From positions 1 through 36,834 of the forward strand of contig WFYJ01000029.1 of assembly GCA_015490175.1 (NCBI GenBank): 36,834 nucleotides of DNA, written 5' to 3'. The position numbers were made by a program, and so were the translations under genes. The number at the start of each line of letters is the position of its first letter. The stretch's first letter is position 1. The notes under the pieces were generated by a model that was not told where the DNA came from, did not search any database, and worked only from the letters and a program-made list of their open reading frames with translations. Of the stretch, positions 2,576-20,222 are shown piece by piece. The DNA comes from Saprospiraceae bacterium (GTDB taxonomy: Bacteria > Bacteroidota > Bacteroidia > Chitinophagales > Saprospiraceae).

Positions 2576-3313
2576 TCATTCACTGGTGGCAGCGTTTTCC
2601 TTCAGCAATTTCATTATGGCATCGGCCCAGATGCGATAGGCCGACCCGTTGAGATGGATGCCATCTTCGGTGAAGCGCGCGTCGAGGCGGCCCTGCGCGT
2701 CCGAAAACAGCGGATGCAGGTCGAGGAAGCGGCATCCATGTCGGGCTGCCAGCTCTTTGAGGGCCTCATTCACTGCGCGAACATCTTCGTTGCGGATGCC
2801 GAGGGGCCGCACCTCGTTGTTTACCGGCAGCAGACTCTGCACCACGATACGGGTGCGAGGCAAGGCGGCAGTCAGCCGTTGCAGCAGCACCTCGTATTGC
2901 CTGATGACAAAGCCGGGCTCGTGAAACAGCAGGTCGTTGATGCCGATCATGAGGAACAGCCACTCGGGCTGCAGCTCCACCACCTCGTCGAGGCGGTGCA
3001 ACACTCCGCCAATATGGTCGCCGTTGATGCCGCGGTTGCGCACGCGCGGGTTTTGCAAGAGCTCGACCCACTCGCCCTGCCGTGTCAGCGAGTTGCCCAG
3101 CATGACGATGGTCGCAGAATCAGCAGGCAGCATGTCCAGTTGCGATTTTCGGTGTGCGTATTCGGCCCCTACCCCGCGCGTCTGAAAGCGATACATGAGG
3201 TAGCGCCAGCCGCCGAGGCGATGCACGGCCCACAGGCCGACAGCCATGGCCAGCACGTTGAGCAGCAATGAGCCTGCCAGGATTGCCTTGCACCAATTGC
3301 TACACGTACTCAT
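2576..3313 (-). CDS. SGNH/GDSL family hydrolase, membrane anchored
   Basis: A 245-residue protein with an N-terminal signal anchor (about residues 9-29) and a complete SGNH hydrolase core: GNSLT (block I serine), NRGINGD (block II glycine), GINDLL (block III asparagine) and DGIHLN (block V aspartate and histidine). It is probably an exported acetyl esterase acting on carbohydrate. It is the first gene of the cassette with the MBOAT and the second SGNH-like protein, so the operon has an acyl transporter/transferase flanked by two SGNH proteins. The 83 bases between its start and the insertion sequence hold no clear TAnnTTTG box, so its original promoter may have been changed by the insertion. 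Confidence 0.88.
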   Translation of the reverse strand: MSTCSNWCKAILAGSLLLNVLAMAVGLWAVHRLGGWRYLMYRFQTRGVGAEYAHRKSQLDMLPADSATIVMLGNSLTRQGEWVELLQNPRVRNRGINGDHIGGVLHRLDEVVELQPEWLFLMIGINDLLFHEPGFVIRQYEVLLQRLTAALPRTRIVVQSLLPVNNEVRPLGIRNEDVRAVNEALKELAARHGCRFLDLHPLFSDAQGRLDARFTEDGIHLNGSAYRIWADAIMKLLKENAATSE

Positions 3314-3396
3314 GCCTCATTTAGTGGTGTCCTTGAATAGATGATCGTGCACCCTGAGAATGAACCGGCTGTAAAAAATTGCGTGTAGGGTTTAGA

Positions 3397-5127
3397 CCTA
3401 CATTCCGCACCTTTGTGCAGGAGTCCCCGGTATTTTTTTAAATTCAATGTTATCGCATGGAAATAGACAGTATATTAGAGACGCAACGAATTGACCATCT
3501 GGGTATTGTGGCAGGCGTATGTGATGAGGTCGGTCTGATTTCAGCTATTGATGAAGTGGTTGGGCTGACAAAGCGCAAAGTGAGTTGCGGTATGGCCGTA
3601 CAGGCCATGGTATTGAATGCGCTGGGGTTTTCAGGGCGAGCGTTGTATCTGATGCCGCAATATTTGCACAACAAGCCTGTGGATTTGTTAATAGCACCGG
3701 GCTTGAAAGCAGAAGATTTCAACGATGACAGTCTGGGGCGCTGCCTGGATCAGTTGTTCGAAACAGGCGTGACAAAGGTTTTTGCTCACGTGGTACGCAA
3801 AGCACTGGAAACCTATGGGATAGAGTGCCGTTTTTTTCATCTGGACAGTACGAGTTTTCACGTACATGGGCAGTACGAAGGGCAGCAAACACCATCGGAG
3901 CAAGCAAGTGCAGAAGGCGAACCGATAGCCATACAGATCACGCATGGGTATTCGAAGGATCACCGTCCGGATCTGAAGCAAGTGGTGGTCAATCTCATCA
4001 CGACACATCGGTCGCAGCTTCCGGTGTGGATGGAATCCCTGAGTGGCAATGCGGCAGACCGCAAGAGTTTTCCGAAAACGATCCAGGCATTTTGCAAGCA
4101 GCTGCAGCAGGCCGATGAGTGTTTTTTCGTGGTAGACAGTGCGCTATACAGTGCTGAAAATCTGAACAATCTGTCACACATACGCTGGCTGACGCGTGTG
4201 CCGCGCACGCTCAAGGAGGCCCGTGAGGTACTGACCCATACAGAACGCGCCCAGATGCAAGATCTGGGCGATGGATATGCCGGTGTGGAAGTGCGCAGCA
4301 ATTATGCCCAGGTGGAACAGCGTTGGCTGGTGGTGTATTCAGAAAAGGCAGCCCGGCGAGAAGAAAAGACCTTGCAGCGTCGGCTGAGCAAGGAAAAAGA
4401 AAGCGCGCAACGTCAGTGGCGCAAACTGCAACATCAGCAATTCGACAGCCCGCAACAGGCTCAGGCAGCCATGGAATCCTTGCAAAAGAAGTGGAAGTAT
4501 CATAGCCTCTCGGCGCAGGTGGTTCCTGTGAAGCGCTATGCCTCGCGTGGCCGTCCGGCCGCCGGTTCTGAACCGCAAGTTGTTGGATTCCAGTTGGAAG
4601 GGCAAGTGCAGCAGTCGGAACAATTGCTCGAAAAGGCGCGAAAGGGTCAGGGATATTTCATACTGGCCACCAATGAATTGGATGCAGATCGCCTTTCGAC
4701 ACAGGACATGCTCGCTCAGTACAAAGCTCAGGCCGTTTCCGTAGAACGCGGCTTTCGTTTTCTGAAAGATCCATTGTTTTTCGCTCACAGTCTTTTTCTG
4801 AAAAATCCGGGTCGCATCATGGCGTTGACCATGATAATGACCCTCTCATTACTGATCTATTCGCTGGCCGAACGCAAGTTGCGCGACATATTGCAACAAA
4901 GTGGGCAGAGCATCCCCAATCAAGTGGGCAAGCCGACCCAGCGTCCGACCATGCGCTGGGTTTTCCAGTTGTTCGAGGGGATCGATTTGCTGCTGATTCG
5001 AGAAAACGGACGAATTGTCCAGCGAAAAGTACTCAACCTCACGCCTGTTCAGCTACAAATCATCAATATGCTCGGCCCGCCGGTCGAAAAATGCTATCTG
5101 ATCGATGCTTGAGGTGCGGAATGTAGG
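3397..5127 (+). mobile_element. IS1634-like insertion sequence, complete
   Basis: The element is bounded by a perfect 16-bp inverted repeat, CCTACATTCCGCACCT at 3397-3412 and its complement at 5112-5127, and encodes a single intact transposase. The flanks (ttaga on the left, ctcca on the right) show no target-site duplication. The right end lies inside the type IIG gene, while the left flank shows no continuation of that gene. The lack of duplication suggests a deletion or recombination next to the element after it inserted. The family is inferred from the transposase. The boundaries could extend a few bases further out. Confidence 0.85.
3457..5112 (+). CDS. IS1634 family transposase (DDE, IS4 superfamily)
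   Basis: A 551-residue transposase with an N-terminal DUF4277-like region (about residues 10-115) and an RNase H-like catalytic core. The first aspartate lies in FFHLDSTSFHVHG and the second in FFVVDSALYSAEN. The glutamate lies in YKAQAVSVERGFRFLKDP, which matches the Y-R-E-K signature of IS4-type enzymes. The frame is uninterrupted and full length for the family, so the element may still be active. The stop codon overlaps the right inverted repeat, so the C-terminal codons are part of the element end. Base composition differs from the GC-rich neighbours. Confidence 0.93.
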   Translation: MEIDSILETQRIDHLGIVAGVCDEVGLISAIDEVVGLTKRKVSCGMAVQAMVLNALGFSGRALYLMPQYLHNKPVDLLIAPGLKAEDFNDDSLGRCLDQLFETGVTKVFAHVVRKALETYGIECRFFHLDSTSFHVHGQYEGQQTPSEQASAEGEPIAIQITHGYSKDHRPDLKQVVVNLITTHRSQLPVWMESLSGNAADRKSFPKTIQAFCKQLQQADECFFVVDSALYSAENLNNLSHIRWLTRVPRTLKEAREVLTHTERAQMQDLGDGYAGVEVRSNYAQVEQRWLVVYSEKAARREEKTLQRRLSKEKESAQRQWRKLQHQQFDSPQQAQAAMESLQKKWKYHSLSAQVVPVKRYASRGRPAAGSEPQVVGFQLEGQVQQSEQLLEKARKGQGYFILATNELDADRLSTQDMLAQYKAQAVSVERGFRFLKDPLFFAHSLFLKNPGRIMALTMIMTLSLLIYSLAERKLRDILQQSGQSIPNQVGKPTQRPTMRWVFQLFEGIDLLLIRENGRIVQRKVLNLTPVQLQIINMLGPPVEKCYLIDA

Positions 5128-7076
5128 CTCCATATAAAGGGGCGGTCATCCTTCAGACATGCCTTTTCCCCGTTGAGTTCCTCGATGCGTGCCTTCCACT
5201 GGCGGATCTGCTGTTCTGTTGCGTCCGAAATGTCGATTTTGAGCTGTACCGCCTCCCCGGGAAAGGCAATGGCACCTTGGCGCCCCTGTTTTTTCAGTGC
5301 CTGTATTTTCCTTTTGCACTCCTGTATTTCCTCGTCCAGAACGGCCCTGAATACTTTCAGCTCTTCTTGGGTGATGGCGCGTGGATCCTCGGATTTATTG
5401 TAGAAATAATCCCTTTTCTTTTTCTTCAGTTCCCTGATTTTGCGCTTGAGTGGCTTGGAAAGCGAGGCGTGCCCTTGTACGGAAAATGTTTTGCTTGCAA
5501 TGCGCTGCACCAGGGAGTCGCCTGTGCGTACCTTGAAGGTCAGGTTGGGCAGCAGGGGGGTGGGCGAATGGCGCTCTTCGTCGGGCATGTCGACGAACAG
5601 CGTCAGCCACAGGCGCAAGTGATTGATCCACACGGCCCATCGCTTCACTTCCACGCCGTAGAGCGAGCGGGCAATGATGGCCTTTTTGCGCTCGAAGGGG
5701 GAAGGAGCATTCTGCGTCAGCTCGGGCGGGGCGTTGTTGTGGGTGTAGAGGTCTTCGAGTGTACGTTCCAGTACTTGCAGCATGCCTACTTCAAAGGCAC
5801 CAGAGCCCGCTGCTGGGTCGCAGACGGTCACATTCTCCAGTTTCTCGATCAGCGTGCGGATTTCTTCTGCACTGAGTGTGACTTCTACCGAATCTCCGGG
5901 TGGGAAGAAAAGCTGATACAGGCTTGCCTGGCGGATGTCGGTAGTTTGTTGCAACCACTTGATCAAGGCCAGGCGGCACATCAGGTCCACCTCCACGCGC
6001 GGCGTATAGACGGCACCCTGATCCATGTTGGTGATGCGCTCGAAGATGATGCCGAGGAATTCGGGGTTGAGTTCCAGTTCCTCGTCGTAGCGATCGTTTT
6101 CCTCTACGGTGAAATTGTATTGGAAGAGAAAATCGAAGAAATCTCCAATGAGATCATCGGGAATCCACAGATCTTTGTCATCCACGCCCTGCTTGCGCTT
6201 GAAGAGTTCCCCGTTGAGATAGGGGGCCATCTGCAGGGCCGTTTGCGTATCTTCTGAAAAGGGTGCATGGCCATAGGCCACCTTGCATCCTGGCGGATTG
6301 TTAAGGGCCTCAAAGAACAATGGTGCCAACCACTCTTTGTAGAAAGTGTTTCGAGGGCGATTGCTGCGTTGATATTCCCGCCAGAAATCCTGTAAGAAGC
6401 GGGGATTCTCGCCCAGCCAGCCTTTCTTTTGTACAAAACCGAGAAAAATGGTGCGGATGGCGAACAGGAGGGCAAAATCCTGCCTGAGGGCTTCGTCGGT
6501 TGTCCCCACTACTTCCCGGGCGATCTGGTCGTATCTGGGCCTGAATTCCTGATAGAAAGCGTCGGAAACAGCTTCCAGTGAGAAGGCTTCCAGGATCTGC
6601 GCCATCGAGGACAAATCGGCCTTCCCGAATTGGAGGACGAAGGTTTTGTTGGGAAGTTCCGGGTCCACAAAGAAAGTGTAGCGCCGGTAGGGGCTGAATT
6701 GTTTGCGCGTGCCGTGATAGGTGGTTGTGATGAGCGAGAGCCGAAAGCGACCGGCATCATCGTAGAAAGCGAAGATACCGGCATTGTAGTTGCCCGCCTT
6801 GAGGATGCGCTTGCCCAGATCAAACTGCATCTTTTTGCCGGAGCGCGATGTCAGCTCCCGTACCGAATGCACATCGGCAACTACGACATTCTTTTGCACA
6901 TCGGGAAATTCGATGACACCCAACTTTTGCACCGTATCAAAGGGCCAGCCTTCTTTGACCAAACGGTCGAATGGCTCGAACTCTTTATCCTGTTGGAAAG
7001 GCGCGATTCGACGCATCAAGTAGGTGAGCCGTTCATGGGTGTATCCTTCAAGCAGTGGTTTCAGGAACTCTGTCAT
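5128..7076 (-). pseudogene. Type IIG restriction-modification enzyme, 3' part lost to IS
   Basis: About 650 residues of an Eco57I/BREX-PglX-like fused restriction-methylation protein. It has an N-terminal nuclease-like region, then the methyltransferase SAM motif CDPAAGSGAFEVG and the helix LYGVEVKRWAVWINHLRLWL. The sequence reaches DDRPFIW, the start of the PFxW block that precedes NPPY in this family, and then enters the insertion sequence. The open frame continues to 5094 with IS-derived residues. Catalytic motif IV (NPPY) and the target-recognition domain are therefore missing, so methylation and cleavage are presumably lost. The start is placed at 7076 because its ATG overlaps the TGA of the upstream RAMP gene (ATGA). 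No matching 3' fragment occurs elsewhere in the window. Confidence 0.88.
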
Positions 7077-8029
7077 GTGTCGCTTTGCCATTTTTGTGCA
7101 AAAACTGTTTGCCAATGTTGTGGTAGCAGATTTATCGAATGGCGCTCCACCTCTGCCACGCCGTATCCGCTGCTGGTCTTGGCGCCAAAGCCGTATTTGG
7201 TGAGCATGGCGTGGACGCCTTCAGCGATTGCGGCGAGGTCGGCTTTGGCGGTTTCTTCCGAGGGGTGGAAGTGGAGTGGGACGTAGAGGAGGGAAAACAC
7301 GCCACTTGTGCCCGCAGGCACGCATTCAAAGTAGATGGGGTTTTTCCCCGTGCCCGTTGCCCGGTCGTGGGGGTTGATGACTTCCAGTCCGATGCGGTCG
7401 AAGAAGGTGGGGTAGAAGTGGAGGCAGCCTGCACGGTATGCTTCACTTTCTTCCTTTACATTGCCGAACAGACGCACCATTTGCTCGTTTTGTGCTGCTT
7501 CGTTCAGCGTTTTGTACCGCCTCAGTCGGTACATGGCGGCACGCAACGCGCCTTTCCACTGAGCGGGAGCTATGCAGGGTACTTTGAAGACCCACTCCTT
7601 TTTGACGGGATTGTCGAGAATGTAGAAGTCGGTATCGTCCTTGCTGATGTAGGGTTTGCGCAGGGTGAAGGGGAGCTGAAGCGCCCATGATCCGGGTGGG
7701 AGACCGGCGAGGTCGGGGAGGGAGGGATATAGTTTCAGCGCGGCCAAATATTGCGATTGCCGTTGAAAGAATGCTTTCGCATGGTGTTCGATCCAATAAC
7801 GCAATCCCCCGCCCATTTTGCCTGAACCCATGCGCGCTTCATCTTTACGGCCGGTGCCTGCTGCCTGCGTCAGGATGGCAATACGTGCCCAATCGTCTTC
7901 GATCCCGCCGATGGCAGGCCACCGGGTGGGCTCATCCGCATTGGGATCAACCAGTCGCCTGATGGCAAAGCCCTGCGTAGTACTGTTTTGCAGGGCAAGG
8001 GGGAATTGGGCGTGGTATTCGCGTTTCAT
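7073..8029 (-). CDS. RAMP superfamily protein, Cas7-like (Cmr4/Cmr6/Csm3-type fold)
   Basis: A 318-residue protein with marks of the CRISPR RAMP superfamily: QWKGALRAAMYRL (about residues 157-169), LFGN (about 187), a following AGCLHFYP strand, and a C-terminal glycine-rich loop GFGAKTSSGYG (about 280-290). In type III complexes such proteins bind crRNA along the backbone. Here no Cas10, Cas6 or repeat array is nearby. The start at 8029 leaves 5 bases after the TOPRIM gene; an alternative ATG at 8053 would overlap it by 19 bases. Its stop overlaps the start of the type IIG gene (ATGA). It is the second RAMP of the operon and is not a duplicate of the first. What it binds is unknown. Confidence 0.75.
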   Translation of the reverse strand: MKREYHAQFPLALQNSTTQGFAIRRLVDPNADEPTRWPAIGGIEDDWARIAILTQAAGTGRKDEARMGSGKMGGGLRYWIEHHAKAFFQRQSQYLAALKLYPSLPDLAGLPPGSWALQLPFTLRKPYISKDDTDFYILDNPVKKEWVFKVPCIAPAQWKGALRAAMYRLRRYKTLNEAAQNEQMVRLFGNVKEESEAYRAGCLHFYPTFFDRIGLEVINPHDRATGTGKNPIYFECVPAGTSGVFSLLYVPLHFHPSEETAKADLAAIAEGVHAMLTKYGFGAKTSSGYGVAEVERHSINLLPQHWQTVFAQKWQSDT

Positions 8030-8034
8030 AGAGT

Positions 8035-8760
8035 TTAAGTTTCTAATAACCAATTCCAGGCCTCAATCAAAGGGGCAAAAACACGTCGCAAGGATTCTTC
8101 AGACGCACACTTAGCTACCTTTTGGGAAAACCATACATGGGATTGCTGATACTGAAAGGCTGTGATGAATGCATAAATCCATGATTTGTTTTGTATCCAT
8201 GGGTAATTGTTTCTTTTCATAAGTTCAGGAAACTCCTCTCTGCCCTTTCTCAACAGTTCACGTGCCATTTCTTCGGAATGGGAATATAATCTGGTAGCAA
8301 TTTCATCATTATTCTTGTCTAACAGGAGCTTCAGAATATACCCATCGAAATCTCTATTGGAAATCCCTTGGATGGCGGCATCAGATACGTGTAAGACGAT
8401 ACAGGTTCCTTCGATATAGGTCTTGAAGAGATTTTGATATAAAGGATGGGTAGTCCAAATCAAACCGTTCCATTTGGCATCATGTTGTTGCAGGTCATTC
8501 GCGATCCGGTTTGCACGTTCTATCGGAGATTGAAGGTCTTCTTGGTCGAAAATCAGCAAAATTCGTCCTACTGCTTGTAGAGGAAAAGAGGCGAGTGCTT
8601 CAATAACCTGGTTATATCCTTCTCTTTTGTGCCCAAAGACACTTTTCCAGTCGGGGGGGCGTGGCTTTGCGACCTGGTTCATAATTTTTCTGTCATAAAG
8701 CACTTTCCCGACTTCCCGTTCAGTCGCTCCCTCGGTGATCACTATGATTTCAACAGACAT
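8035..8760 (-). CDS. TOPRIM-like protein paired with OLD-type ATPase
   Basis: A 241-residue protein. The N-terminal VEIIVITEGATE (conserved glutamates at about 10 and 14) and RILLIFDQEDLQSP (acidic D72-x-E-D75) fit the glutamate and DxD motifs of a TOPRIM-like fold, as in DUF3226/DUF4276/DUF4435-type proteins. Such proteins occur next to ABC-type ATPases in split OLD nucleases and PARIS-like defence pairs. The rest is helical and unassigned. The start at 8760 (MSVEIIV) overlaps the ATPase stop by 11 bases, so the two are translationally coupled. The expected role is a nuclease or toxin effector governed by the ATPase. The gene is clearly AT-richer than the housekeeping genes around it. Assignment is by motif only. 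Confidence 0.6.
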   Translation of the reverse strand: MSVEIIVITEGATEREVGKVLYDRKIMNQVAKPRPPDWKSVFGHKREGYNQVIEALASFPLQAVGRILLIFDQEDLQSPIERANRIANDLQQHDAKWNGLIWTTHPLYQNLFKTYIEGTCIVLHVSDAAIQGISNRDFDGYILKLLLDKNNDEIATRLYSHSEEMARELLRKGREEFPELMKRNNYPWIQNKSWIYAFITAFQYQQSHVWFSQKVAKCASEESLRRVFAPLIEAWNWLLET

Positions 8761-10099
8761 TGGTGTCTCTTTCTTTGAGGAGATAGTATAATGGCGACTT
8801 CGGTATTTCTTCTTCTGACTTGACGCGCGGATCTCCAATAAATCGGAACCAACTGGCGATTCCCTTACCTGCTGAAAGATCTGCCTGTAATAGTCCGTTT
8901 TCCAAATTCAGCCGAAAGACACGAAGGTCGTTTGTAAGCCGGTGGTTTTCTTCGACCAGTTGTACAAAGAATGCCAACACTTCCAAACTTTGGGTTGTGA
9001 TAAAGATCTGGATGGGCTTTTCTGTGATCAGATTGATGGTTTCTTCCAACAATCTGCCTAACCTCGCCGGGTGCATGAACAGCTCCGGGTCTTCCCACAG
9101 GAAGAGTCCGTAGTGCTTGTCGTTGGTGTTGTCGGGAAGAGGCGATTGTGGTTGATCGCTCGCATGGATTTGACTGGCAAGAGCAGTCAGGCCGGCCAAC
9201 ACCTTGAAGGCGTGGCGGGCGCCGTCGCCGAAGTGATCAATGGCAAGGCGATGATGCCCGGGCAGAGCGAGGTAGCCGGTTTTGCGTTGGGTGTTGCCGG
9301 GCGCATCATCCAGTTCCGTTTTGACGTTTTTGAAGTCGGGGAAAACCCTTTGAAGGCTCTGGGCAAGCTGTTCTTCCCAAGCGATAATGCGATCTTTGGC
9401 CTTGTGGACAAAGCGTTTGTGGAAGGGACGCGTTACTGTGTGGAAATCAAACAGCAGTACGCGATCATGCAATGGGAGTTTGCCTTCTATGGCCCAGACG
9501 GCAAAGTGATCAATGCCGATTTTGCGATCCCATTGATGCACCCAGGAATTTTCCCACAGGTAGGTCCAATATGCGTTTTCCAATTGGATGCCTTTTTCTT
9601 CAAAGTACGGCGGCATCATTGGTTGGGGAACCGTAACGGATTGCGGTGATAGTCGGAAAAGGCTGATTTGGTGTATATCTTTTTTGATAAAAGCTTTTTG
9701 AATAGTGGATTTCTCAGGTGGAGCTGTCAACGAAAATCTGCTGAAGGGAAAACTCTCGGGAAGATCCTGAAGAATCACGTCCAAAGAGTATTCATCTGTC
9801 AGTGCAGCAGGCGAGTTTTGCCACTTTTTGGGCTCTCCATGACGCTCGCGCAAACGCGGCATGGGTTCTTCACCCAGGAAGTCAAATCGGTTTAATGTAT
9901 GAGCAGGCCAGGCTGAGGGCTCCAAGTCAGGTGTAAGCACATTGCACGCTCGGCCGCAATTGCTTGCCAGGTAAAGCATTTCCAATACGGCCGTCTTGCC
10001 ACTGTTGTTTGGCCCAATGAGTACATTGACTTTGCCGAAATCGTCCAATGCTCCTTGTCGTATTCCACGAAACCGATGTATTGCCAGGCGCTTGATCAT
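8750..10099 (-). CDS. AAA15/OLD-family ATPase
   Basis: A 449-residue SMC/ABC-like ATPase. Walker A is GPNNSGKT (residues 29-36), a signature-like FGDGARHAFKVLAGL follows, and Walker B is LFLWEDPELFMHP (about residues 332-344). The switch segment is ITTQSLEVL, with glutamine where the family usually has histidine. The N-terminal IHRFRGI motif is typical of AAA15/OLD proteins. The start at 10099 lies one base after the stop of the Cmr1-like gene, and the end overlaps the TOPRIM-like gene. In OLD-like, Gabija-like and PARIS-like systems, ATPases of this type sense phage factors or form the scaffold of a nuclease complex. Here it sits between two RAMP genes, a context I do not recognise from a described system. 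Confidence 0.85.
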   Translation of the reverse strand: MIKRLAIHRFRGIRQGALDDFGKVNVLIGPNNSGKTAVLEMLYLASNCGRACNVLTPDLEPSAWPAHTLNRFDFLGEEPMPRLRERHGEPKKWQNSPAALTDEYSLDVILQDLPESFPFSRFSLTAPPEKSTIQKAFIKKDIHQISLFRLSPQSVTVPQPMMPPYFEEKGIQLENAYWTYLWENSWVHQWDRKIGIDHFAVWAIEGKLPLHDRVLLFDFHTVTRPFHKRFVHKAKDRIIAWEEQLAQSLQRVFPDFKNVKTELDDAPGNTQRKTGYLALPGHHRLAIDHFGDGARHAFKVLAGLTALASQIHASDQPQSPLPDNTNDKHYGLFLWEDPELFMHPARLGRLLEETINLITEKPIQIFITTQSLEVLAFFVQLVEENHRLTNDLRVFRLNLENGLLQADLSAGKGIASWFRFIGDPRVKSEEEIPKSPLYYLLKERDTNVC

Positions 10100-10100
10100 A

Positions 10101-11183
10101 TCAGATGTTTTGAAGCAGATCCTTTGTTTCCGTTGCACTTCTCACTTTCCATTGGTTCATAGGTGTTGTAGTCAGGCTTCCTTGCACCCCAAGCACGGTG
10201 TGCCAGGTATTTGCATCACTCAAGATGCCGTAAAGCTGTTGGGCCAGGTGGTTCTTTTGGGGCATCCATGCCCATCCGTGAATGGTCCATTGTTTGTTAT
10301 CGCTGTAAGCCCAGGTAGCACTGATACGTCCGCGCCTGCGCTCCGGATGCAATGTGCCGAAAATTTCCGCCTGTGTTGAGTTTTGCGGCCATTGATTGAA
10401 TCGCCATTCGTTTTTCAGGGCGGGAGTGGTGGGTGCCGTCTGCCACTGTGAAACCAGGGGTTGGATCTGCGCACCTGCCCGACCCATTCCGGGAACCTGC
10501 GTCCACCACCCGGGCAGGGAAGGTGCAAAGGCGTAATGAAAAAACAGAAAGTGCCGCAGGTCAGGCTGGTCCTTTCTGTCTTTGTCCGGGGGAGAATTTT
10601 CAAGAACTTGCCATTCCCATTTTTGGGCGGCTTCCCGGATCGCTTCGCGCTCGGGCAAGCTGAATGCGCCGTACCCCAGTTGTGGGCGGGCACCGATAGC
10701 GCCGTACTTTTCCAGCCACAACAACAGGGCGGCCAGCATGGCCACCGCCTTTTCTTCGCCCTCGATTTTCAATGTTAGTCGGCCTGCACGTCCCGGCAAA
10801 AGATACCATCCTCGCTTTCTTCCCGGCGGGCGGATGTTGATGGTTTTATTGCGTGGCTGCCATACGGGTGCAGTGCGATCTTCCGTTACCTCCAGCCGAA
10901 ACCGTCGTTTCCACCCCGTTGCGCCAAATACCTGGCAGGCATCGCACAGCCCGGCATCCCGAAGGCGTTGTCGTTCTTCAGTAGCTTGACTCCTGTGGTA
11001 TTTCTCCGCATCGAACGAGCATGTGTGCTCACCGGGATCACATGCATACCCACCCAGGCCGCGCACGATGGCCTCGTACCACCAGCGCAGGCTGCCCAGA
11101 ATGCCGGCTTCGTGGATACGTGTCATGGTCCTGTCGAGACTGCCGGTCCACAGGGGCGTGCGTGTTTGAATTGCGATTTTCAT
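10101..11183 (-). CDS. Cmr1-like RAMP protein (type III-B family), orphan
   Basis: A 360-residue protein matching the Cmr1 pattern: an N-terminal strand with TRTPLWTG, GILGSLRWWYEA (about residues 27-38), four cysteines (C48, C55, C80, C83) placed as a likely zinc site, CDACQVFGATGWKRRFRLEV, and the glycine-rich RNA-binding loop GAIGARPQLGYGAFSL. Cmr1 normally caps the type III-B effector and contacts target RNA. Here it is the first gene of an operon without cmr2-6 in recognisable form. A promoter with TTTG and TATCTTGG boxes lies directly upstream. I infer an RNA-binding or sensing role that feeds the ATPase and TOPRIM-like proteins. Transfer of a CRISPR part into a new system is possible. 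Confidence 0.85.
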   Translation of the reverse strand: MKIAIQTRTPLWTGSLDRTMTRIHEAGILGSLRWWYEAIVRGLGGYACDPGEHTCSFDAEKYHRSQATEERQRLRDAGLCDACQVFGATGWKRRFRLEVTEDRTAPVWQPRNKTINIRPPGRKRGWYLLPGRAGRLTLKIEGEEKAVAMLAALLLWLEKYGAIGARPQLGYGAFSLPEREAIREAAQKWEWQVLENSPPDKDRKDQPDLRHFLFFHYAFAPSLPGWWTQVPGMGRAGAQIQPLVSQWQTAPTTPALKNEWRFNQWPQNSTQAEIFGTLHPERRRGRISATWAYSDNKQWTIHGWAWMPQKNHLAQQLYGILSDANTWHTVLGVQGSLTTTPMNQWKVRSATETKDLLQNI

Positions 11184-11207
11184 CAGGGCAAGGGATTTCG
11201 CCTGTGT

Positions 11208-11238
11208 CCAAGATAGCCAATAAATATATCATGCCAAA
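11208..11238 (-). promoter_or_regulatory. Promoter of the RAMP-ATPase operon
   Basis: On the minus strand, TTTG (11235-11238) is followed after 19 bases by TATCTTGG (11208-11215), one mismatch from the Bacteroidota -7 box TAnnTTTG. The start codon at 11183 is 25 bases further on, giving a very short leader. The -33 box touches the foot of the hairpin at 11238-11279, so that dyad could also act as an operator. Confidence 0.6.
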
Positions 11239-11279
11239 ACGACCACCTCGGGATACTTTTGCATCCCGAACTGGTCGTT
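11238..11279 (-). terminator. Long hairpin between kbl and the RAMP operon
   Basis: AACGACCA and CGGGAT pair with ATCCCG and TGGTCGTT, giving a stem of about 17 pairs with two mismatches and an 8-base loop. On the minus strand it follows the kbl stop by about 33 bases and is followed by TTTT, so it is a plausible rho-independent terminator of kbl. Its overlap with the next promoter leaves an operator role open. Confidence 0.6.
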
Positions 11280-11311
11280 GTACACATATTTCAGAGACTT
11301 GAAGCCGACCA

Positions 11312-12502
<1,191 letters not shown>

Positions 12503-12530
12503 GGTATGTTTTGTTTTTTGAAAAATGAGG

Positions 12531-12640
12531 CCACTGAAAAAAGTCGGAAAATCATTCAGTTACACAGAGAATCCACTGAGGATACACTGATTTCCGCAGA
12601 GTTATAAAAACTGCGTTCAAGCTGCGTCTTCTGCGCCTGA
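12531..12640. repeat. Composite intergenic repeat between tdh and kbl
   Basis: This gap holds GAAAAAAGTCGGAAAATCATT, then module A (12552-12609, TTACACAGAG / CCACTGAG / CACTGATTT words) and the CTGCGT...CTGAAAGCT module. The same order occurs at 20251-20360. The block lies between two genes of one pathway, so it may be transcribed with them. Confidence 0.7.
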
Positions 12641-13703: not shown

Positions 13704-13760
13704 GGTATAATCGGTGAAATCGGTATAATCGGTGAAATCGGTATAATCGGTGAAATCGGT
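13704..13760. repeat. 18-bp tandem repeat, three units
   Basis: The unit GGTATAATCGGTGAAATC is repeated at 13704-13721, 13722-13739 and 13740-13757 without change, followed by GGT. It is internally a double of a 9-mer-like word (GGTATAATC / GGTGAAATC). A run of CTCTTCACTC and CATCACTCC words follows to about 13815, as seen at 140-178. There are no spacers, so it is not a CRISPR array. Confidence 0.9.
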
Positions 13761-13830
13761 TCTCTTCACTCTTCACTCCTCTCTCCATCACTCCGTCACT
13801 CCATCACTCCATCCCAAAAAATCGGGCCAT

Positions 13831-14277
13831 TCACTCGGGCTGGGGCAGGGCACGGACGAGCGTCCAGGTTTTTGCTTCGTGGTTGATGCGCGCACACCAA
13901 GTCTGCCGGCCATTGGTGATGACCAGCCAGGGAGCTTTCAGCGCCATGTTGTACCAGGATGCCTGGGCAAAGACCTGGTCGGTGAGCGCCACGCGGGGGG
14001 CCTTGCATTCGACGAGCAGCCAGGGATGCATGTGCCGGTCGTACACCAGGATGTCCACCCTTTTGCTGCGCCTGTTGACCCGCACCTGCTGCTCCACGGC
14101 GATGCGCCCGCGCGGAATGCCGTGGGCCACCAGCGCCTCGATCATGAGCTGCCGGACGATCTCTTCGGGCGTGTGAGCCACCCATTTGCGGCGCACGGGG
14201 CACCACAGTTGGCGCAGGCCCTCGTACCGTCGCTTTTTCAGCTTTTCGGCAAATGGGGTGAGGTCGAGCTGGATCAT
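13831..14277 (-). CDS. HsdR N-terminal-like PD-(D/E)XK domain protein
   Basis: A 148-residue protein that consists only of a type I restriction R-protein N-terminal-like domain (HSDR_N_2 type). Visible nuclease residues are E62 in AVEQQV, D75 in RVDILVYD and E90-x-K92 in LLVECKAP, the PD-(D/E)XK pattern. No helicase or methylase partner is adjacent. Such stand-alone proteins are common in Bacteroidota and their role is unknown; they may be nucleases or relics of such domains. It follows the outer-membrane candidate gene by 21 bases on the same strand, so the two may be cotranscribed. Confidence 0.8.
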   Translation of the reverse strand: MIQLDLTPFAEKLKKRRYEGLRQLWCPVRRKWVAHTPEEIVRQLMIEALVAHGIPRGRIAVEQQVRVNRRSKRVDILVYDRHMHPWLLVECKAPRVALTDQVFAQASWYNMALKAPWLVITNGRQTWCARINHEAKTWTLVRALPQPE

Positions 14278-14298
14278 GTGGTTCGGGCTGGCGGTGAA

Positions 14299-14964
14299 TC
14301 AGTCGTAAAGTTCCGGGCAACGGGCCCGAGCTTTCCGGCCTGCGAAGTTGAGACTCAGGCCAAGGCGCAGTTGGTGCTGTCCGGCGAGGAAAGCGGGCAC
14401 GGCCGGCAGATCGGTAGGGCGTCTTCTGGCCTGGCGGTATTCGTAGCCGAGCTCGAGGTGTAGCCACTTGTAAATGGGCGTACTCAGCCCCACGCCGCCC
14501 AGCCACATCAGGCCGTGGTCGAGCATCTGGTCGGTCAGCAACTGGCCTTCGGGCTCCTGCCAGATCGTCCAACGCGTCTGCTGGCGGCCCAGGCCGGCGT
14601 GGAACACGAACCCGAAGCGGCGGGCTGGCAGCGAGCTGAAATTGAGGCGTATCCAGCCGGCCCACCACTCGCTGTCGAACGACTCGCGCGTGCCGCCCCC
14701 GCCCGAGGAACCGGGAAAGCGAAAATCGGGGTGGGTCAGGTCGGTAGCCCAAAGCAGGCCGGCTTGCAAGTGTTCGCTACCCGCAGCCACCCGGACACCG
14801 CCGCTCAGCCAGCGCTTGCCGGGCGTGTAGCGGTCGAGCCGCCAGGCCGTCCGGTCCGTGGCCAGCGACACCTCTGCATACCATGCCTGCCCTTGCAAGC
14901 GAGTCGTGCTCACCAGGGTCAGCAGCAAAATCGCGGCGCAGATTTGCAGGTTTCGTTGCATCAC
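14299..14964 (-). CDS. Putative outer-membrane beta-barrel protein
   Basis: A 221-residue protein with an N-terminal signal peptide (hydrophobic AAILLLTLVSTTRL, cleavage likely near QGQA) and alternating strands rich in aromatic residues and glycine, such as WWAGWIRLNFSS, RFGFVFHAGLG and HLELGYEYRQA, ending in LRLGLSLNF. This fits a small outer-membrane beta-barrel. No specific family is recognised. The start could be the first or second methionine of MMQRNL. It is followed after 21 bases by the HsdR_N-like gene. Confidence 0.65.
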   Translation of the reverse strand: MMQRNLQICAAILLLTLVSTTRLQGQAWYAEVSLATDRTAWRLDRYTPGKRWLSGGVRVAAGSEHLQAGLLWATDLTHPDFRFPGSSGGGGTRESFDSEWWAGWIRLNFSSLPARRFGFVFHAGLGRQQTRWTIWQEPEGQLLTDQMLDHGLMWLGGVGLSTPIYKWLHLELGYEYRQARRRPTDLPAVPAFLAGQHQLRLGLSLNFAGRKARARCPELYD

Positions 14965-14995
14965 GCCGCAAAAATGCAGTTTTCAGGTCGTCGAG

Positions 14996-15030
14996 AAACA
15001 AAAAAAAGCGAAACCCGTCACGGGCTTCGC
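14996..15030 (-). terminator. Terminator after the small membrane protein gene
   Basis: GCGAA/TTCGC and CCCG/CGGG pair at 15008-15030 around a TCA loop. On the minus strand the stem is followed by an almost unbroken T-run (complement of 14996-15007). It lies about 45 bases after the stop of the gene at 15076, which supports that small gene as real. Confidence 0.75.
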
Positions 15031-15075
15031 CTGATTTGCTGGTAGATAAGAGTTTCTTTTTTTGCGGAAGCCCAC

Positions 15076-15294
15076 TCAATGAGCTATGTACACGTGGCTG
15101 GTCGAAAAAGGCGAAATGGCAGGTGCGCGGTCGCCCGTGGACTGGGTGATGTACAGGGCGGTGATGGCCACCATGAGTGCCAGCAGGATGGCGGCCAACA
15201 CCGTCTCGCGTTGCTGTTTCCGCTTTCGTCTTGCCAGATCGAGGGCATAGTCATTTCGTGCGTCCGCATGCTGGGGAAGGTCGAAGTGTTTCAT
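15076..15294 (-). CDS. Small single-pass membrane protein
   Basis: 72 residues: a charged, basic N-terminal part (RRKRKQQRE, about residues 22-30), one transmembrane helix (TVLAAILLALMVAITALYI, about residues 31-49) and a short tail. No family is recognised. A good terminator follows it, and a TATATTTG box lies upstream on the same strand, though about 138 bases away. It stands alone between the outer-membrane candidate and polX. Confidence 0.55.
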   Translation of the reverse strand: MKHFDLPQHADARNDYALDLARRKRKQQRETVLAAILLALMVAITALYITQSTGDRAPAISPFSTSHVYIAH

Positions 15295-15431
15295 AGTTCA
15301 TGGGAATTTTATGGAAAAAAGGAATGTCCATGGGATGTGGGCAATAGTGCGTACCATTGCACCGGTTCAATTGGTTTTTGGGACCTTCGTGGAATTGCCA
15401 TTGCGGGCGGATATGCAAAGAACTGTGATGG

Positions 15432-15439
15432 CAAATATA
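15432..15439 (-). promoter_or_regulatory. Possible -7 box for the small membrane protein
   Basis: TATATTTG on the minus strand matches TAnnTTTG exactly, with TTGC at about 20 bases upstream as a weak -33 box. The distance to the start at 15294 is long, so the assignment is tentative. Confidence 0.35.
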
Positions 15440-15520
15440 TGCGAAAAATTAATTTAAGCGCAACTCAATTTGAAATTTTTTTCATTTGTATTCACGGTCT
15501 GACGAAATCCGGATTTGCCC

Positions 15521-17209
15521 ATGGCGTCGAATGGCAAAAAATTGAGTAACAAAGAGATCGCGCGTGCTTTCCGCTTGCTGGCCGACCTGATGGAGTTGCA
15601 CGGTGAGAATCCGTACAAGATCAAGGCCTACCAGAACGCTTACATCCAGTTGCGCAAGCTGGGCAAGCCACTGGCCGAGATGGATGACGAAGAGCTGGCC
15701 CGCCAGAAAGGGGTCGGCAAGGCCATTTTCTCGAAAATCAAAGAGCTGCTGGCTACGGGTACGCTGCGCAAACTGGAGGAATACCTGGCTGTGACGCCGG
15801 TCGGCGTGGTAGAGATGCTGGAAATCAAGGGGCTGGGCCCGAAGAAGGTGCGTTTGTTGTGGCAGGAGCTGGGTATCGAGTCACCGGGCGAGCTGTTGTA
15901 TGCCATCAACGAGAACCGGCTGCTCGAACTGAAAGGATTTGGTCCCAAAACCCAGGAAGCCATCCGCGAGCAGTTGCTGTTCTGGTTTCGGTCGCAGGGC
16001 AAATTCCACTATGCTACCGTGGCCCTCGAGTGGCCGGCCATCGAGGCGGCCCTGCGGGCGGCATTTGCCGAAAGGCGCATCATGCCCGTGGGCGCCTTCC
16101 GCAGAAAGTGCAATGTGGTCGATGGGTTGGATGTGCTGATCGAAGGACAGGCACCTGCGGATGCCGACCGGTTGGAAGCCATTGCGGGTACGAGCGATTG
16201 GTCGCCGGCTGAAGGCGCATGGACGGGCAAGTGGGCCGATACCATTCCCCTGCGCCTGCACTTTTGCACGGAAGGGTGGGGCACGGGCGTCTGTACACTG
16301 ACGGGCGACGCAGCCTTCGTGGCCGGACTCGAAGCACTGGCAGGTGGTACCTTGCCCACCGCAGCCGACGAAACGGAGATTTTTGCGCAAGTGGGGTGCC
16401 AGTGGGTGGCTCCCGAGCTGCGCGAGAGCACGCGCTTTCTGGACCGGGCGCGGCGCGGCGCACTGCCCGACCTGATCGAAACCGACGACATCAGGGGAGT
16501 GATCCACGCACACAGCACCTGGAGCGACGGCATCCACAGCCTGCGCGAGATGGCGCTGGCGGCACGCGCGCGCGGCTATGCGTACCTGGTGATCAGCGAC
16601 CACAGCCGATCGGCCTTCTACGCCAACGGCCTCGATGCCGACCGCGTGCGCCGGCAGTGGGACGAGATTGATCGCCTGAACGAGGAGCTGGCTCCGTTCC
16701 GCATCTTCAAGTCGATCGAGTCGGATATCCTGGCCGACGGCTCGCTCGACTACGACGATGAGTTGCTGGCCGGCTTCGATCTGGTGATTGCGTCGGTACA
16801 CAGCCATCTGCGCATGGACGAGCAGAAAGCCACGGAGCGCTTGCTGAAGGCCATCGCGCATCCGGCCACGCGCATTCTGGGGCACCCCACGGGCCGCTTG
16901 TTGCTGAGCCGGCCCGGCTACCCGATCGATTACGAGCGCATCATCGAGGCCTGTGCCGCGCACGGTGTCGTGATCGAGCTGAACGCCAATCCGCATCGGC
17001 TCGACCTGGACTGGAAGTGGATTCCCGCGGCGCTGGAGGCGGGCGTGTGGATCAGCATCAATCCGGATGCCCATTCCACCGACGGCATCGACGACATTCG
17101 GTGGGGAGTGGCATCGGCGCGCAAGGGCGGCCTGGATGCGGCGCGCTGTCTGTCAGCGTTCGACCTGGCCGCGTTCGAAGACTGGCTGCACAATGGTCGG
17201 AAGCATTAA
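15521..17209 (+). CDS. polX: PolX family protein with degenerate polymerase site and PHP domain
   Basis: 562 residues with the PolX layout: an N-terminal 8-kDa-like region with helix-hairpin-helix motifs (GVGKAI 64-69, IKGLGPKKV 102-110, LKGFGPKTQEAI 137-148), a palm region, and a C-terminal PHP phosphoesterase domain from about residue 326. The PHP metal motifs are complete: HAHSTWSDG, SDHS, SIESDIL, SVHSHL, GHPTGR and NPDAHS. The polymerase motif that should read GSxRRG...GDxD reads GAFRRKCNVVDGLD, so one metal aspartate is out of place. The protein is more likely a DNA-binding 3'-5' exonuclease or phosphoesterase in base-excision repair than a working polymerase. The start at 15521 (MASNGKK) is preferred; ATG 15515 is two codons upstream. 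Confidence 0.88.
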   Translation: MASNGKKLSNKEIARAFRLLADLMELHGENPYKIKAYQNAYIQLRKLGKPLAEMDDEELARQKGVGKAIFSKIKELLATGTLRKLEEYLAVTPVGVVEMLEIKGLGPKKVRLLWQELGIESPGELLYAINENRLLELKGFGPKTQEAIREQLLFWFRSQGKFHYATVALEWPAIEAALRAAFAERRIMPVGAFRRKCNVVDGLDVLIEGQAPADADRLEAIAGTSDWSPAEGAWTGKWADTIPLRLHFCTEGWGTGVCTLTGDAAFVAGLEALAGGTLPTAADETEIFAQVGCQWVAPELRESTRFLDRARRGALPDLIETDDIRGVIHAHSTWSDGIHSLREMALAARARGYAYLVISDHSRSAFYANGLDADRVRRQWDEIDRLNEELAPFRIFKSIESDILADGSLDYDDELLAGFDLVIASVHSHLRMDEQKATERLLKAIAHPATRILGHPTGRLLLSRPGYPIDYERIIEACAAHGVVIELNANPHRLDLDWKWIPAALEAGVWISINPDAHSTDGIDDIRWGVASARKGGLDAARCLSAFDLAAFEDWLHNGRKH

Positions 17210-17264
17210 CAGCTCGTTAACACCTGTACTGCTGAGGCCCACAGGTGAAAAAAATTGAGCCACT

Positions 17265-17272
17265 TATCTTTG
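17265..17272 (+). promoter_or_regulatory. -7 box of the DUF1573 lipoprotein gene
   Basis: TATCTTTG matches TAnnTTTG exactly, 61 bases before the start codon at 17334. No good -33 TTTG is seen. A CACCTGT/ACAGGTG inverted repeat (17221-17247) lies just upstream, after the polX stop. Confidence 0.6.
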
Positions 17273-17333
17273 CATAGCGCAAAAAACAGCATTTCACAAG
17301 CCCATTATTCCATCAATCAAAAATCCCGAAACT

Positions 17334-17870
17334 ATGTTGAAGCGACTCATTTTCAGCCTGATGGTTGTGCTCATGGCTGGCGCCATGGTGAGCTGTGGCT
17401 CGGAAGGTGGCGACACGGCCACTGCTGAGGCCCGTCAGAGCGTGACGCCCAATCAGGATGCTGCCAATACTCCTCAGCCGCAACCGGCTACTCCTGCCAC
17501 GCAGGCGCCCACCGGTCCGACCACGAGCATTGCCTTCGAAGAGTCGGAGTACGACTTCGGCAGCGTGAAGGCCGGCGAGAAGGTGCGCCATCCGTTTAAG
17601 TTCAAGAATACGGGTTCGGAGCCCCTGATCATCAGCAATGCCAAGGGTAGCTGCGGTTGCACCGTGCCGAGCTGGCCGCGTGAGCCGATCCCGCCGGGTG
17701 GCGAAGGCGAGATCCTGGTGGAATTCGACACGAAGGGCAAGCGCGGCAAGCAAAACAAGAAGGTGACCATCACCGCCAACACCGAGCCGCCGCAGACCTT
17801 CCTCTACATCAAGGGCGAGGTGATCCCCGATCAGACGCAACAGCAGAACACGACCAAAGTGACCCAGTAA
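17334..17870 (+). CDS. DUF1573 lipoprotein
   Basis: 178 residues. A lipoprotein signal peptide ends at MVSCG (Cys21), then comes a low-complexity Q/P/T/A linker (about residues 25-65) and one DUF1573 domain with YDFGSVKAGEKVRHPFKFKN, NAKGSCGCTVPSWP and VEFDTKGKRGKQNKKVTI. DUF1573 is an immunoglobulin-like fold common in exported Bacteroidota proteins, and its function is not settled. It has its own promoter and is followed by a strong terminator, so it is probably expressed alone. Confidence 0.92.
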   Translation: MLKRLIFSLMVVLMAGAMVSCGSEGGDTATAEARQSVTPNQDAANTPQPQPATPATQAPTGPTTSIAFEESEYDFGSVKAGEKVRHPFKFKNTGSEPLIISNAKGSCGCTVPSWPREPIPPGGEGEILVEFDTKGKRGKQNKKVTITANTEPPQTFLYIKGEVIPDQTQQQNTTKVTQ

Positions 17871-17893
17871 TCAAACGGGTCTCTGGTTCCACG

Positions 17894-17935
17894 AAGCCCG
17901 CATCAGTGCCATTATTGATGCGGGCTTTCTATTTT
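17894..17935 (+). terminator. Rho-independent terminator after DUF1573
   Basis: AGCCCGCATCA pairs perfectly with TGATGCGGGCT (17895-17905 with 17916-17926) around a 10-base loop, followed by TTCTATTTT. It ends a few bases before the ubiA-like start, so it may attenuate rather than fully separate the two genes. Confidence 0.85.
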
Positions 17936-17942
17936 GGCGGCC

Positions 17943-18821
17943 ATGGAAAAGACCGTAGGCATCCGACATTTCCTCTCGCTGGTCAAGTTCAGCCATACCA
18001 TCTTCGCCATGCCCTTTGCCTTGCTCGGCTTTTTCATTGGCGTGCAGGACATGGGGCTCTTTCGCTGGATCGATCTGTTGCTCGTGGTCGCCTGTATGGT
18101 ATTTGCGCGCAGTGCGGCCATGGCGTTCAACCGCTACCTCGATCGCCACATCGACGCGGCCAACCCGCGCACCCGCAACCGGGAAATACCTGCCGGCATC
18201 ATCAGTCCGCGCCAGGCGCTGCGCTTCGTGGTGCTCAATGCGGTACTGTTCATGGCAGCGGCCTGGCTGCTCAATCCGCTGTGCCTTTACCTGTCGCCGG
18301 TGGCGCTGGCCGTCATTCTGGGCTACAGCTACACCAAGCGCTTCACGGCCCTGTGCCACTTCGTGCTGGGGCTGGGCCTGGCGCTGGCACCCGTGGGTGC
18401 CTACCTGGCCGTGACGGGCCGGTTCGCGCTGCTGCCCCTGCTGTACGGGCTGGCTGTGCTCACCTGGGTAGCCGGCTTCGACATCATCTACGCGCTGCAG
18501 GACGAGGATTTCGACCGCGCATACCAGTTGCATTCGGTTCCTGCGGCACTGGGCAAGGTGCGCGCGCTGCAGGTGTCGCGCCTGTTGCACGTCATCAGTG
18601 CAGCGGCCATCGTGTCGGCCGGCTGGATCCTGATGCAGGAGTATCCGCAGGTCGGCTGGCTGCACTGGCTGGCGGTGGGCATCTTCTGTCTGCTGCTCGT
18701 GTGGCAACACCGCCTGGTGAAGCCGGACGACCTGAGTCGGGTCGATCTGGCCTTTTTCACGACCAACGGCATGGCCAGCCTGGTGTTCGGCCTGCTCGTC
18801 ATCCTGGATTTCTACCTTTGA
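17943..18821 (+). CDS. UbiA family prenyltransferase (UbiA/MqnP-like)
   Basis: 292 residues, polytopic. The two prenyl-diphosphate/Mg motifs are NRYLDRHIDAANPRTRNR (N63, D67, D71) and DIIYALQDEDFD (D180, D188, D191). The second matches the 4-hydroxybenzoate polyprenyltransferase subgroup, which in menaquinone-using bacteria includes the futalosine-pathway enzyme MqnP. It attaches a polyprenyl chain to an aromatic quinone precursor in the inner membrane. The ATG at 17943 is chosen over TTG at 17934 because the latter lies in the terminator T-run. A MenI-like thioesterase at 19791 is the only other gene with a possible quinone link. Confidence 0.88.
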   Translation: MEKTVGIRHFLSLVKFSHTIFAMPFALLGFFIGVQDMGLFRWIDLLLVVACMVFARSAAMAFNRYLDRHIDAANPRTRNREIPAGIISPRQALRFVVLNAVLFMAAAWLLNPLCLYLSPVALAVILGYSYTKRFTALCHFVLGLGLALAPVGAYLAVTGRFALLPLLYGLAVLTWVAGFDIIYALQDEDFDRAYQLHSVPAALGKVRALQVSRLLHVISAAAIVSAGWILMQEYPQVGWLHWLAVGIFCLLLVWQHRLVKPDDLSRVDLAFFTTNGMASLVFGLLVILDFYL

Positions 18822-19320
18822 CGTTCATCCCAGAGGCTACGGTATGCCCGATGCAATCCCGTTCGGGAATTTTTGACGACGGTCAATGGTCAATGGACGA
18901 TTTTTTGAGATGGAAAGGAAAGAGATGGAGTGAGGGAGTGACCAGCTGCGCAAACTGCGTCAGCGCTGTGTCTTCTGCGTCTGGAAGATCATTCACTTAC
19001 ACAGAGCGCCACTGAGCATGCACTGATTTTCACAGGGTTGTAAACCCTCAACCCTACACGCTCAACCCTCAACAACAGGTCAAAAACTGCGCGCAAACTG
19101 CGTCCATCTGCGGCTGAAAGCTGCGGTTTTTGGCTGAGCAATCGAGGAACCAAAGAACCGAGGATTCAATTCAAGAGCCCCTGATGAAAAAGTCGAAAAA
19201 CATTCAGTTACACAGAGATCCACTGAGTGCGCACTGATTTTCACAGAGTTGTAAACTCTGAACCCTCAACACTACACCCTCAACCATTTTTGCAATAAAC
19301 CAAAATTCAAACTGTTTGCC
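18822..19320. repeat. 500-bp gap filled with intergenic repeat modules
   Basis: No gene is seen. It opens with hairpin module F (18847-18875: CCCGA pairs with TCGGG, then AATTTTT), a likely terminator of the ubiA-like gene. GGAGTGAGGGAGTGACC words follow, then module A (18989-19044, nearly identical to 35-90), CTCAACCCT words, the CTGCG/GAAAGCTGCGG module, AATCGAGGAACCAAAGAACCGAGG, and a second module A (19201-19254) with further CTCAACC words. The last 35 bases before the next start are AT-rich, with CATTTTTG (19285-19292) as a possible -7 box one base off consensus. Confidence 0.8.
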
Positions 19321-19773
19321 ATGAAAAACCGACTTTTCGTCCTGATCGGCGCATTGCTTGTGGTTCTTCAGTTTTTCCAGCCCGATCGCAGCGTGCCTGC
19401 CTACGATGCTTCTCAGGATTTCATCAATCAGATGAAGCCACCTGCCGATGTGGCGGAGATGCTGCGCGTGGCCTGCTACGATTGCCATTCGTACGAGACG
19501 GAATGGCCGTGGTATTCCTGGGTGCAACCGACAGGATGGTGGTTGGGCGGTCATGTGCGCGAGGGGCGCGAGCACTTCAATCTTTCGCTATGGGGCACCT
19601 ATTCGGCTGAGGATCAGCAGGACATTCTCGAACATATGGCCAAAGCCGTAAAGAAAGGCTTTATGCCGCTCGAGCCCTACAAGTTCATGCATCCCCGGGC
19701 AAATTTGAGCGATGCCCAGCGCGCCGCACTTGCCGCCTGGCTGGAACAAGCCGAGGCTTCCCTGTCTCATTGA
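19321..19773 (+). CDS. Haem-binding domain protein (Haem_bd, c-type cytochrome-like)
   Basis: 150 residues. The N-terminal hydrophobic segment (about residues 4-19) is a signal anchor that places the protein in the periplasm. The covalent haem site CYDCH is at residues 52-56, in the context ACYDCHSYETEWPWYSWVQP that marks the Bacteroidota Haem_bd family. Later blocks are KGFMPLEPYKFMHP (a methionine that could be the second ligand) and LSDAQRAALAAWLEQ. The role is presumably electron transfer or haem-linked sensing. It is followed after 17 bases by the thioesterase gene. Confidence 0.88.
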   Translation: MKNRLFVLIGALLVVLQFFQPDRSVPAYDASQDFINQMKPPADVAEMLRVACYDCHSYETEWPWYSWVQPTGWWLGGHVREGREHFNLSLWGTYSAEDQQDILEHMAKAVKKGFMPLEPYKFMHPRANLSDAQRAALAAWLEQAEASLSH

Positions 19774-19790
19774 CTCAGCATGTGAGCTTT

Positions 19791-20222
19791 ATGAAAATCT
19801 GGAAACAGTCATTTACCCTGGAAAGTCTGAACGCCCTGTCGGCCAACACGATGGTCGGCCATCTGGGCATCGAGATCGTGGAAGTGGGCGACGACTATCT
19901 CAAGGCCACCATGCCGGTAGACCATCGCACGGTGCAGCCCATGCGGCTGCTGCACGGTGGGGCCTCGGTGGCGCTGGCCGAGACGCTGGGCAGCGTGGCC
20001 GGCGTGCTCTGTCTCGAAGACCTGGAGCGGCAGAGCGTCGTGGGCGTCGACATCAATGCCACCCATCTGCGCCCCGGCCGCGAAGGAGAAACCGTCACGG
20101 GCATTGCCCGGCCGCTGAAAATCGGCCGAACCACCCAGGTCTGGAACATAGACATCTTCAACGAACAAGGCAAACAGATCTGCGCCAGCCGCATCACTCT
20201 GGCCGTGGTGGCGCGAAAGTGA
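19791..20222 (+). CDS. Hotdog-fold thioesterase (PaaI/MenI/EntH-like)
   Basis: 143 residues of the hotdog family. The key block is LLHGGASVALAETLGSVAG, with the catalytic glutamate, followed by VGVDINATHLRPGREGETV. The closest named groups are 1,4-dihydroxy-2-naphthoyl-CoA hydrolase (MenI) and proofreading thioesterase EntH. The substrate is not decided by the sequence. The ATG at 19791 is preferred over the TTG at 19770, which overlaps the previous stop. It probably shares a transcript with the Haem_bd gene. Confidence 0.87.
   Translation: MKIWKQSFTLESLNALSANTMVGHLGIEIVEVGDDYLKATMPVDHRTVQPMRLLHGGASVALAETLGSVAGVLCLEDLERQSVVGVDINATHLRPGREGETVTGIARPLKIGRTTQVWNIDIFNEQGKQICASRITLAVVARK

Follow-up and report, generated by a model that had tools for sequence, protein, structure and literature searches.

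The genes beside the insertion sequence (IS) in the window, i.e., the entire contig C29 (36,834 nt) of a Saprospiraceae assembly of 4.14 Mb and 291 contigs, make up the leading end of a type III-C CRISPR effector operon in which a restriction-modification (R-M) gene is embedded. This R-M gene encodes a type IIG-like adenine methylase, it is truncated by the IS, and a gene for an SGNH-hydrolase-like protein is found on the other side of the element. The SGNH-IS-methylase join is probably an assembly product, generated by passage through a collapsed repeat. From the gene orders of two further contigs, C107 and C146, it follows that the genes expected next to either flank of the IS are located elsewhere in the assembly. 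The features are compiled in Table 1; KBL, SGNH, MBOAT, and GT2 are presumed names of the respective genes.

Table 1. Features around the insertion sequence in the window
Feature	Position	Strand	Evidence and remarks
SGNH-hydrolase-like gene, exopolysaccharide-type gene cluster	2576..3313	-	67-68% identity to G037, there preceded by GT2
Left flank, second part of intergenic repeat (first part ends C146)	3320..3396	.	Inverted repeat I1, 3320-3377 with 21471-21528, 81%
Complete IS of the IS1634 family, 1,731 bp	3397..5127	+	15-bp perfect inverted ends
IS1634-family transposase, 551 aa	3457..5112	+	NF033559 390 bits; DUF4277 + DDE_Tnp_1
N-terminal part of type IIG-like / DrmMI-like adenine methylase, interrupted at RPFIW ahead of NPPY	5128..7076	-	PADLOC REase_MTase_IIG E 3.8e-27; 13 relatives
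cmr6 (RAMP), type III-C operon	7073..8053	-	PADLOC Cmr6 PDLC00988 E 1.6e-77
Cargo gene 2, 267-aa product; motifs resembling TOPRIM seen by eye only	8035..8838	-	Unmatched in Pfam, PADLOC, NCBIfam
AAA ATPase, AriA/AbiLi/OLD-like, cargo gene 1	8750..10138	-	AAA_21 E 3.9e-17; AriA E 2.9e-20; AbiLi E 2.5e-19
cmr1 (RAMP), at the start of the operon	10101..11183	-	TIGR01894 62.5 bits, cut-off 28.65; PADLOC Cmr1
KBL-type acyltransferase, conserved neighbour marking the operon insertion site	11312..12502	-	91% identical in sister species G037, there before tRNA-Ser + protease gene

The break in the methylase gene

The reading frame of the methylase gene starts with an ATG at position 7076 on the minus strand and runs into the IS after KDDRPFIW. 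At the break point, 11 of the 13 relatives read a close variant of RPFIWSIEFAEIFFDRGGFDIIIGNPPY, and past KDDRPFIW a close variant of SIEFAEIFFDRGGFDIIIGNPPY is found in 11 of the 13. The exceptions are the distant relative L033 (27% identity), which differs before NPPY, and L030, the contig of which ends before the break point. The continuation of 11 relatives through the break point shows that the break in the methylase gene is exact. The NPPY motif is present in 12 of the 13 relatives, with L030 ending before the motif, and has been lost here by truncation. The alignment of the relatives is thus in agreement with the sequence-only reading, which had stated that a type IIG gene is truncated by the IS just before NPPY.

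The fragment matches the PADLOC models for type IIG R-M systems and for DrmMI of DISARM, and an Eco57I methylase domain is present in the relative L031. The structure of the N-terminal 300 residues was modelled with a mean pLDDT of 77.8. The best match of this model was to residues 2-144 of the type IIG enzyme DrdV (Z 6.7, rmsd 4.1, 116 aligned residues), which is within the range of common arrangements, and Foldseek yielded no match at E <= 0.001. In contrast to both known systems, the gene is truncated here, and the candidate nuclease partner in the relatives is a PLD and SNF2 helicase protein. This protein is far under the cut-off for DrmD of DISARM (137.5 of 610 bits).

The C-terminal half of the methylase was not found in the assembly, and it is not encoded by the left flank of the IS. 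In a control for the query, all 4 of 4 known carriers were found, including the source genome of the query itself; the best pieces in the three other carriers had identities of 64-72%. The earlier view that no other half exists therefore applies to the methylase gene, but not to the operon, the 3' end of which is present on C107.

A type III-C operon with inserted genes

The gene order in the window is cmr1, the AAA/267-aa pair, cmr6, and the methylase gene. With cmr1 and cmr6 on C29 and the end of cmr3 on C107, the first two genes and the last gene of the usual type III-C operon are present. The operon differs from the usual one in that the pair of the AAA ATPase gene and the 267-aa gene parts cmr1 from cmr6, and in that the methylase gene follows cmr6. 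The genes had previously been described as an operon left with a disabled modification enzyme. The truncated methylase was correctly recognized, but the operon itself is a type III-C CRISPR operon into which the R-M gene is embedded.

Other genes of the operon were searched for in the assembly. Neither cas10c nor the PLD/SNF2 helicase gene, which follows the methylase gene in the closest relative and encodes the candidate nuclease partner, was found; the sole match for the helicase was a generic helicase stretch of 48 residues. In the controls for the Cas10c/helicase query, the Cas10c part matched G350 (34-37% identity) and its own source G405, and the SNF2 part of the helicase query matched properly only in its source genome. 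A Cas10c family search of the present genome yielded nothing, and its 14 controls likewise gave no match. CRISPR arrays were found neither in C107 nor among the 20 listed of the 47 repeat families of the window.

The AAA ATPase gene and the gene for the 267-aa protein (42.8% GC) are located at 8035-10138 between cmr1 and cmr6, a position that is occupied by MNT and HEPN genes in L031. The AAA gene matches the AriA and AbiLi models and has a second gene as its partner, similarly to PARIS (AriA/AriB), AbiL, and further pairs with an OLD-like ATPase. However, the 267-aa partner does not match any model, and therefore, membership in PARIS or AbiL is not claimed. In addition to the collections listed in Table 1, PDB sequences yielded nothing better than E 0.56 for this protein, and no match was found in viral contigs or plasmids. 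Motifs seen by eye in the protein are presumably TOPRIM-like. A structure model generated from the single sequence had a mean pLDDT of 38 and was unusable.

Neighbours of the two flanks on other contigs

Downstream of KBL, the sister species G037 carries, in this order, tRNA-Ser(tga), a gene for a protease, and a membrane-protein-like gene. Contig C107 (6,206 bp) opens inside cmr3 and encodes the C-terminal 209 aa of the protein (PADLOC Cmr3, E 1.8e-31), which align over 200 aa to the Cmr3 protein of L060. The cmr3 piece is followed by tRNA-Ser(tga), a protease gene that is 41-42% identical to that of G037, and a gene that is 82% identical to the next gene of G037. Thus, cmr3, the last core gene of the operon, survives, and its position is as expected for an operon that was inserted between KBL and tRNA-Ser. 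Candidate borders of an island between KBL and tRNA-Ser are located at 11184-11312 and at positions 632-741 of C107. No copy of the tRNA 3' end of the kind left by attachment-site integration occurs in the window within 3 mismatches of the 23-base pattern. The GC content of the island genes is 43-57%, versus 59-60% for the host sequence, and with this lower GC content, an unbinned contig would readily account for the middle part of the operon that is missing.

On the other side of the IS, the SGNH gene is preceded and overlapped by a GT2 gene in G037. Contig C146 (6,191 bp) is filled by five genes that are collinear with the five genes preceding SGNH in G037 (60-74% identity). GT2 is the last of these genes, with 135 bp between it and the contig end. 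The final bases of C146 belong to the initial portion of an intergenic repeat, which is continued by positions 3320-3396 of the window. By eye, C146 ends 4-5 bases short of the IS edge that is expected with a 5-6 bp duplication.

Members of the intergenic repeat family are also present at 12-98, 12526-12569, 18966-19052, 20246-22783, and 33086-33207, some of them with CTCAACCC-type tails, in addition to the one that ends C146. Between the epimerase gene and 31390 (13704-31389), the window contains about 18 kb that are absent from G037 at this place; in the comparison with L049, the neighbours match, and the stretch itself has no matches.

The insertion sequence and its copies

The inverted ends of the IS (3397-3411 and 5113-5127) are CCTACATTCCGCACC. 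The transposase score clearly exceeds the cut-off of 100 bits of the family model NF033559. The element resembles the IS1634 family in the transposase model, in its length, and in ends that fit C-----YT, as given in the family table of PMC2266710. The same source gives target duplications of usually 5-6 bp for the family, and atypical ones of 8-514 bp for IS1549 and IS1634 (PMC2266710). In contrast, a duplication of 5-6 bp is absent at the present copy. No target duplication of 2-10 bp was found between the flanks, and a comparison for ungapped duplications of 5-600 bp also yielded none, the best result being 50% identity over 30 bp. A long duplication of the 8-514 bp type is thus not seen at the junction in the ungapped comparison, and the previous observation of an IS without target duplication has been extended to 600 bp. 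If the flanks stem from two different IS copies, the absent duplication is a property of the junction and not of the element.

Contig C187 terminates 148 bp into the left end of the same IS, with 148 identical bases. As another contig is closed by the same left end, at least one further IS copy exists, and the repeat has been collapsed. This is in line with the earlier proposal that two or more IS copies are involved. The flank of this copy contains a thioredoxin-like and a PLD-like gene as well as a short ORF for a hypothetical protein (names given by eye). A search for a second copy flanked by the missing NPPY part of the methylase gene had been suggested; the C187 copy does not have this flank, since its flanking genes are unrelated, and C187 is ruled out as the location of the missing half. 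None of the C187 genes was found near the compared stretches of G037. The C187 flank and the methylase flank do not have a common duplication, and therefore, at least one flank of each of the IS copies is unseen.

Origin of the junction

For the preferred assembly join, the following course can be envisaged. An IS1634 element would have inserted into the methylase gene, which was embedded after cmr6 in a III-C operon between KBL and tRNA-Ser. Further copies of the IS would be present on C187 and, as suggested by the left junction, between GT2 and SGNH. The copies would have been collapsed in the draft assembly, so that the contig exits the IS into the wrong flank. The true order would then be SGNH after GT2 (C146), and the methylase gene would continue through the operon up to cmr3 (C107), with the missing middle of the operon presumably left unassembled or unbinned. 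Judging by the gene lengths in the relatives, the piece with the methylase C-terminus, the PLD/SNF2 helicase gene, cas10c, cmr4, and cmr5 would measure very roughly 9-10 kb. Some observations argue against this course. Assemblers usually break at a repeat of 1.7 kb instead of crossing it, and thus, the crossed IS copy could be real. C107 starts inside cmr3 without a visible repeat that would be the reason, and thus, a genuine loss of some of the operon is conceivable. The lack of a common duplication of the C187 and methylase flanks also counts against this course. In addition, C146 halts short of the IS and does not run into it. Lastly, the G037 assembly has SGNH on one contig and KBL on another, and their true distance is thus not given.

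This last point also means that synteny cannot reveal a real balanced inversion, or another reciprocal exchange, in which the IS copy in the methylase gene recombined with a copy upstream of SGNH and which would have generated a reciprocal junction of GT2, IS, and the methylase C-terminus. Such an inversion would fit the flanks without duplication, the presence of two or more IS copies, and the retention of cmr3-protease and of GT2. Nevertheless, we regard it as rather unlikely, as the reciprocal junction is absent from the assembly and one event more is needed than for an assembly join. The searches of the assembly did not reveal the methylase C-terminus, the PLD/SNF2 helicase, or Cas10c, as would be expected after a one-sided deletion starting from the IS, by which the remainder of both the methylase gene and the operon was lost and SGNH was brought into the adjacent position. 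Yet the segments just inside both breakpoints, cmr3-tRNA-Ser-protease on C107 and GT2 on C146, would also have been lost, and both are present. Furthermore, the methylase fragment and the four genes upstream of it have kept open frames. A simple deletion therefore fails, unless the segments had been moved beforehand, and it was rejected as highly improbable. Consequently, an assembly join or a balanced inversion between IS copies remains, and we consider the former about twice as probable as the latter. The sequence-only reading had named a one-sided deletion or a recombination between IS copies; the first of these is contradicted by the segments on C107 and C146, and the second survives in its balanced form.

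The reading with the least probability, close to negligible, is a simple one-step insertion of the IS at this site without a recognizable duplication. The duplications of 8-514 bp given for IS1549 and IS1634 in PMC2266710 indicate that members of the family vary in the length of the duplication, but the two flanks of the IS have different neighbours in G037, and the search up to 600 bp did not reveal any duplication. The IS part of the story is ordinary.

Nesting of modules in type III-C operons

Matches to the Cmr6 of the window at E <= 1e-10 were found in 6 of 395 genomes of the phylum, including the present one. In all 5 other genomes cas10c directly follows cmr6, and in the 4 of them whose contig extends far enough cmr1 directly precedes cmr6. 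This direct adjacency of cmr1, cmr6, and cas10c shows that none of those other genomes has the genes inserted here. The order in G350 is cmr1-cmr6-cas10c-cmr4-cmr5-cmr3, followed by cas6, and a CRISPR-like array with 24 repeat copies (L061, 16483-18946) is located beside this operon. In 6 of 6 relatives examined, Cas10c lacks GGDD, and in the relatives its gene lies between cmr6 and cmr4. The absence of the GGDD cyclase site from Cas10 is described as a III-C trait in PMC11229360. The annotation of an Anabaena plasmid reads cmr1-RAMP-Csx11-cmr4-hypothetical-RAMP. In a Thermus thermophilus plasmid (L079, 4345-8705), two transposase genes (IS3, IS701) are located between cmr1 and RAMP genes.

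Within the flanks examined, RAMP genes near the methylase gene were found in 1 of the 13 relatives, the Saprospiraceae MAG with locus L031; the contigs of several other relatives are short, and thus, further RAMP neighbours could be missed. The closest relative locus (L031+L060) has the order cmr1-MNT-HEPN-cmr6-methylase (IIG)-PLD/SNF2 helicase-cas10c-cmr4-cmr5-cmr3-csx1. The window shows the front of this arrangement, but the pair that separates cmr1 from cmr6 is another one. The methylase gene of L031 (3620-9405) is in three pieces: the frame is broken near 4,700, an AlbA_2/HATPase_c_4 ORF of 567 aa lies inside, and a C-terminal piece of 385 aa follows. Downstream of the methylase gene, 6 of the 12 other relatives (L022, L024, L025, L028, L029, and L032) contain an ORF of 1,125-1,139 aa. 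The downstream ORFs of L031 and L028, the only two that were scanned, both encode PLD/SNF2 proteins.

The III-C loci inspected for nesting were L031, those on two plasmids, and those of the 5 other genomes from the phylum. At two loci, a III-C operon contains a nested methylase/helicase unit together with exchangeable, toxin-like or ATPase, gene pairs, and this layout seems to be an unusual and new form of known systems. The titles and abstract openings searched, a coverage that excludes most subscription journals, do not describe a III-C operon with a type IIG gene inside.

To our knowledge, type III-C systems have no known effectors. We tentatively propose, as a rather speculative idea, that some III-C operons without the Cas10 cyclase site might be platforms for the nesting of immune modules. 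These modules would be exchangeable pairs between cmr1 and cmr6 (AAA and the 267-aa gene here, MNT and HEPN in L031) and a methylase with a PLD/SNF2 helicase between cmr6 and cas10, and they could be III-C effectors or a back-up.

Taken together, the claim of a gene loss is removed, as its junction is not supported by the rest of the genome. The case illustrates that a multi-copy IS can make an immune operon in a draft genome look amputated. If it turned out to be general, the nesting of modules would offer a testable answer to the question of what acts as effector in III-C systems.
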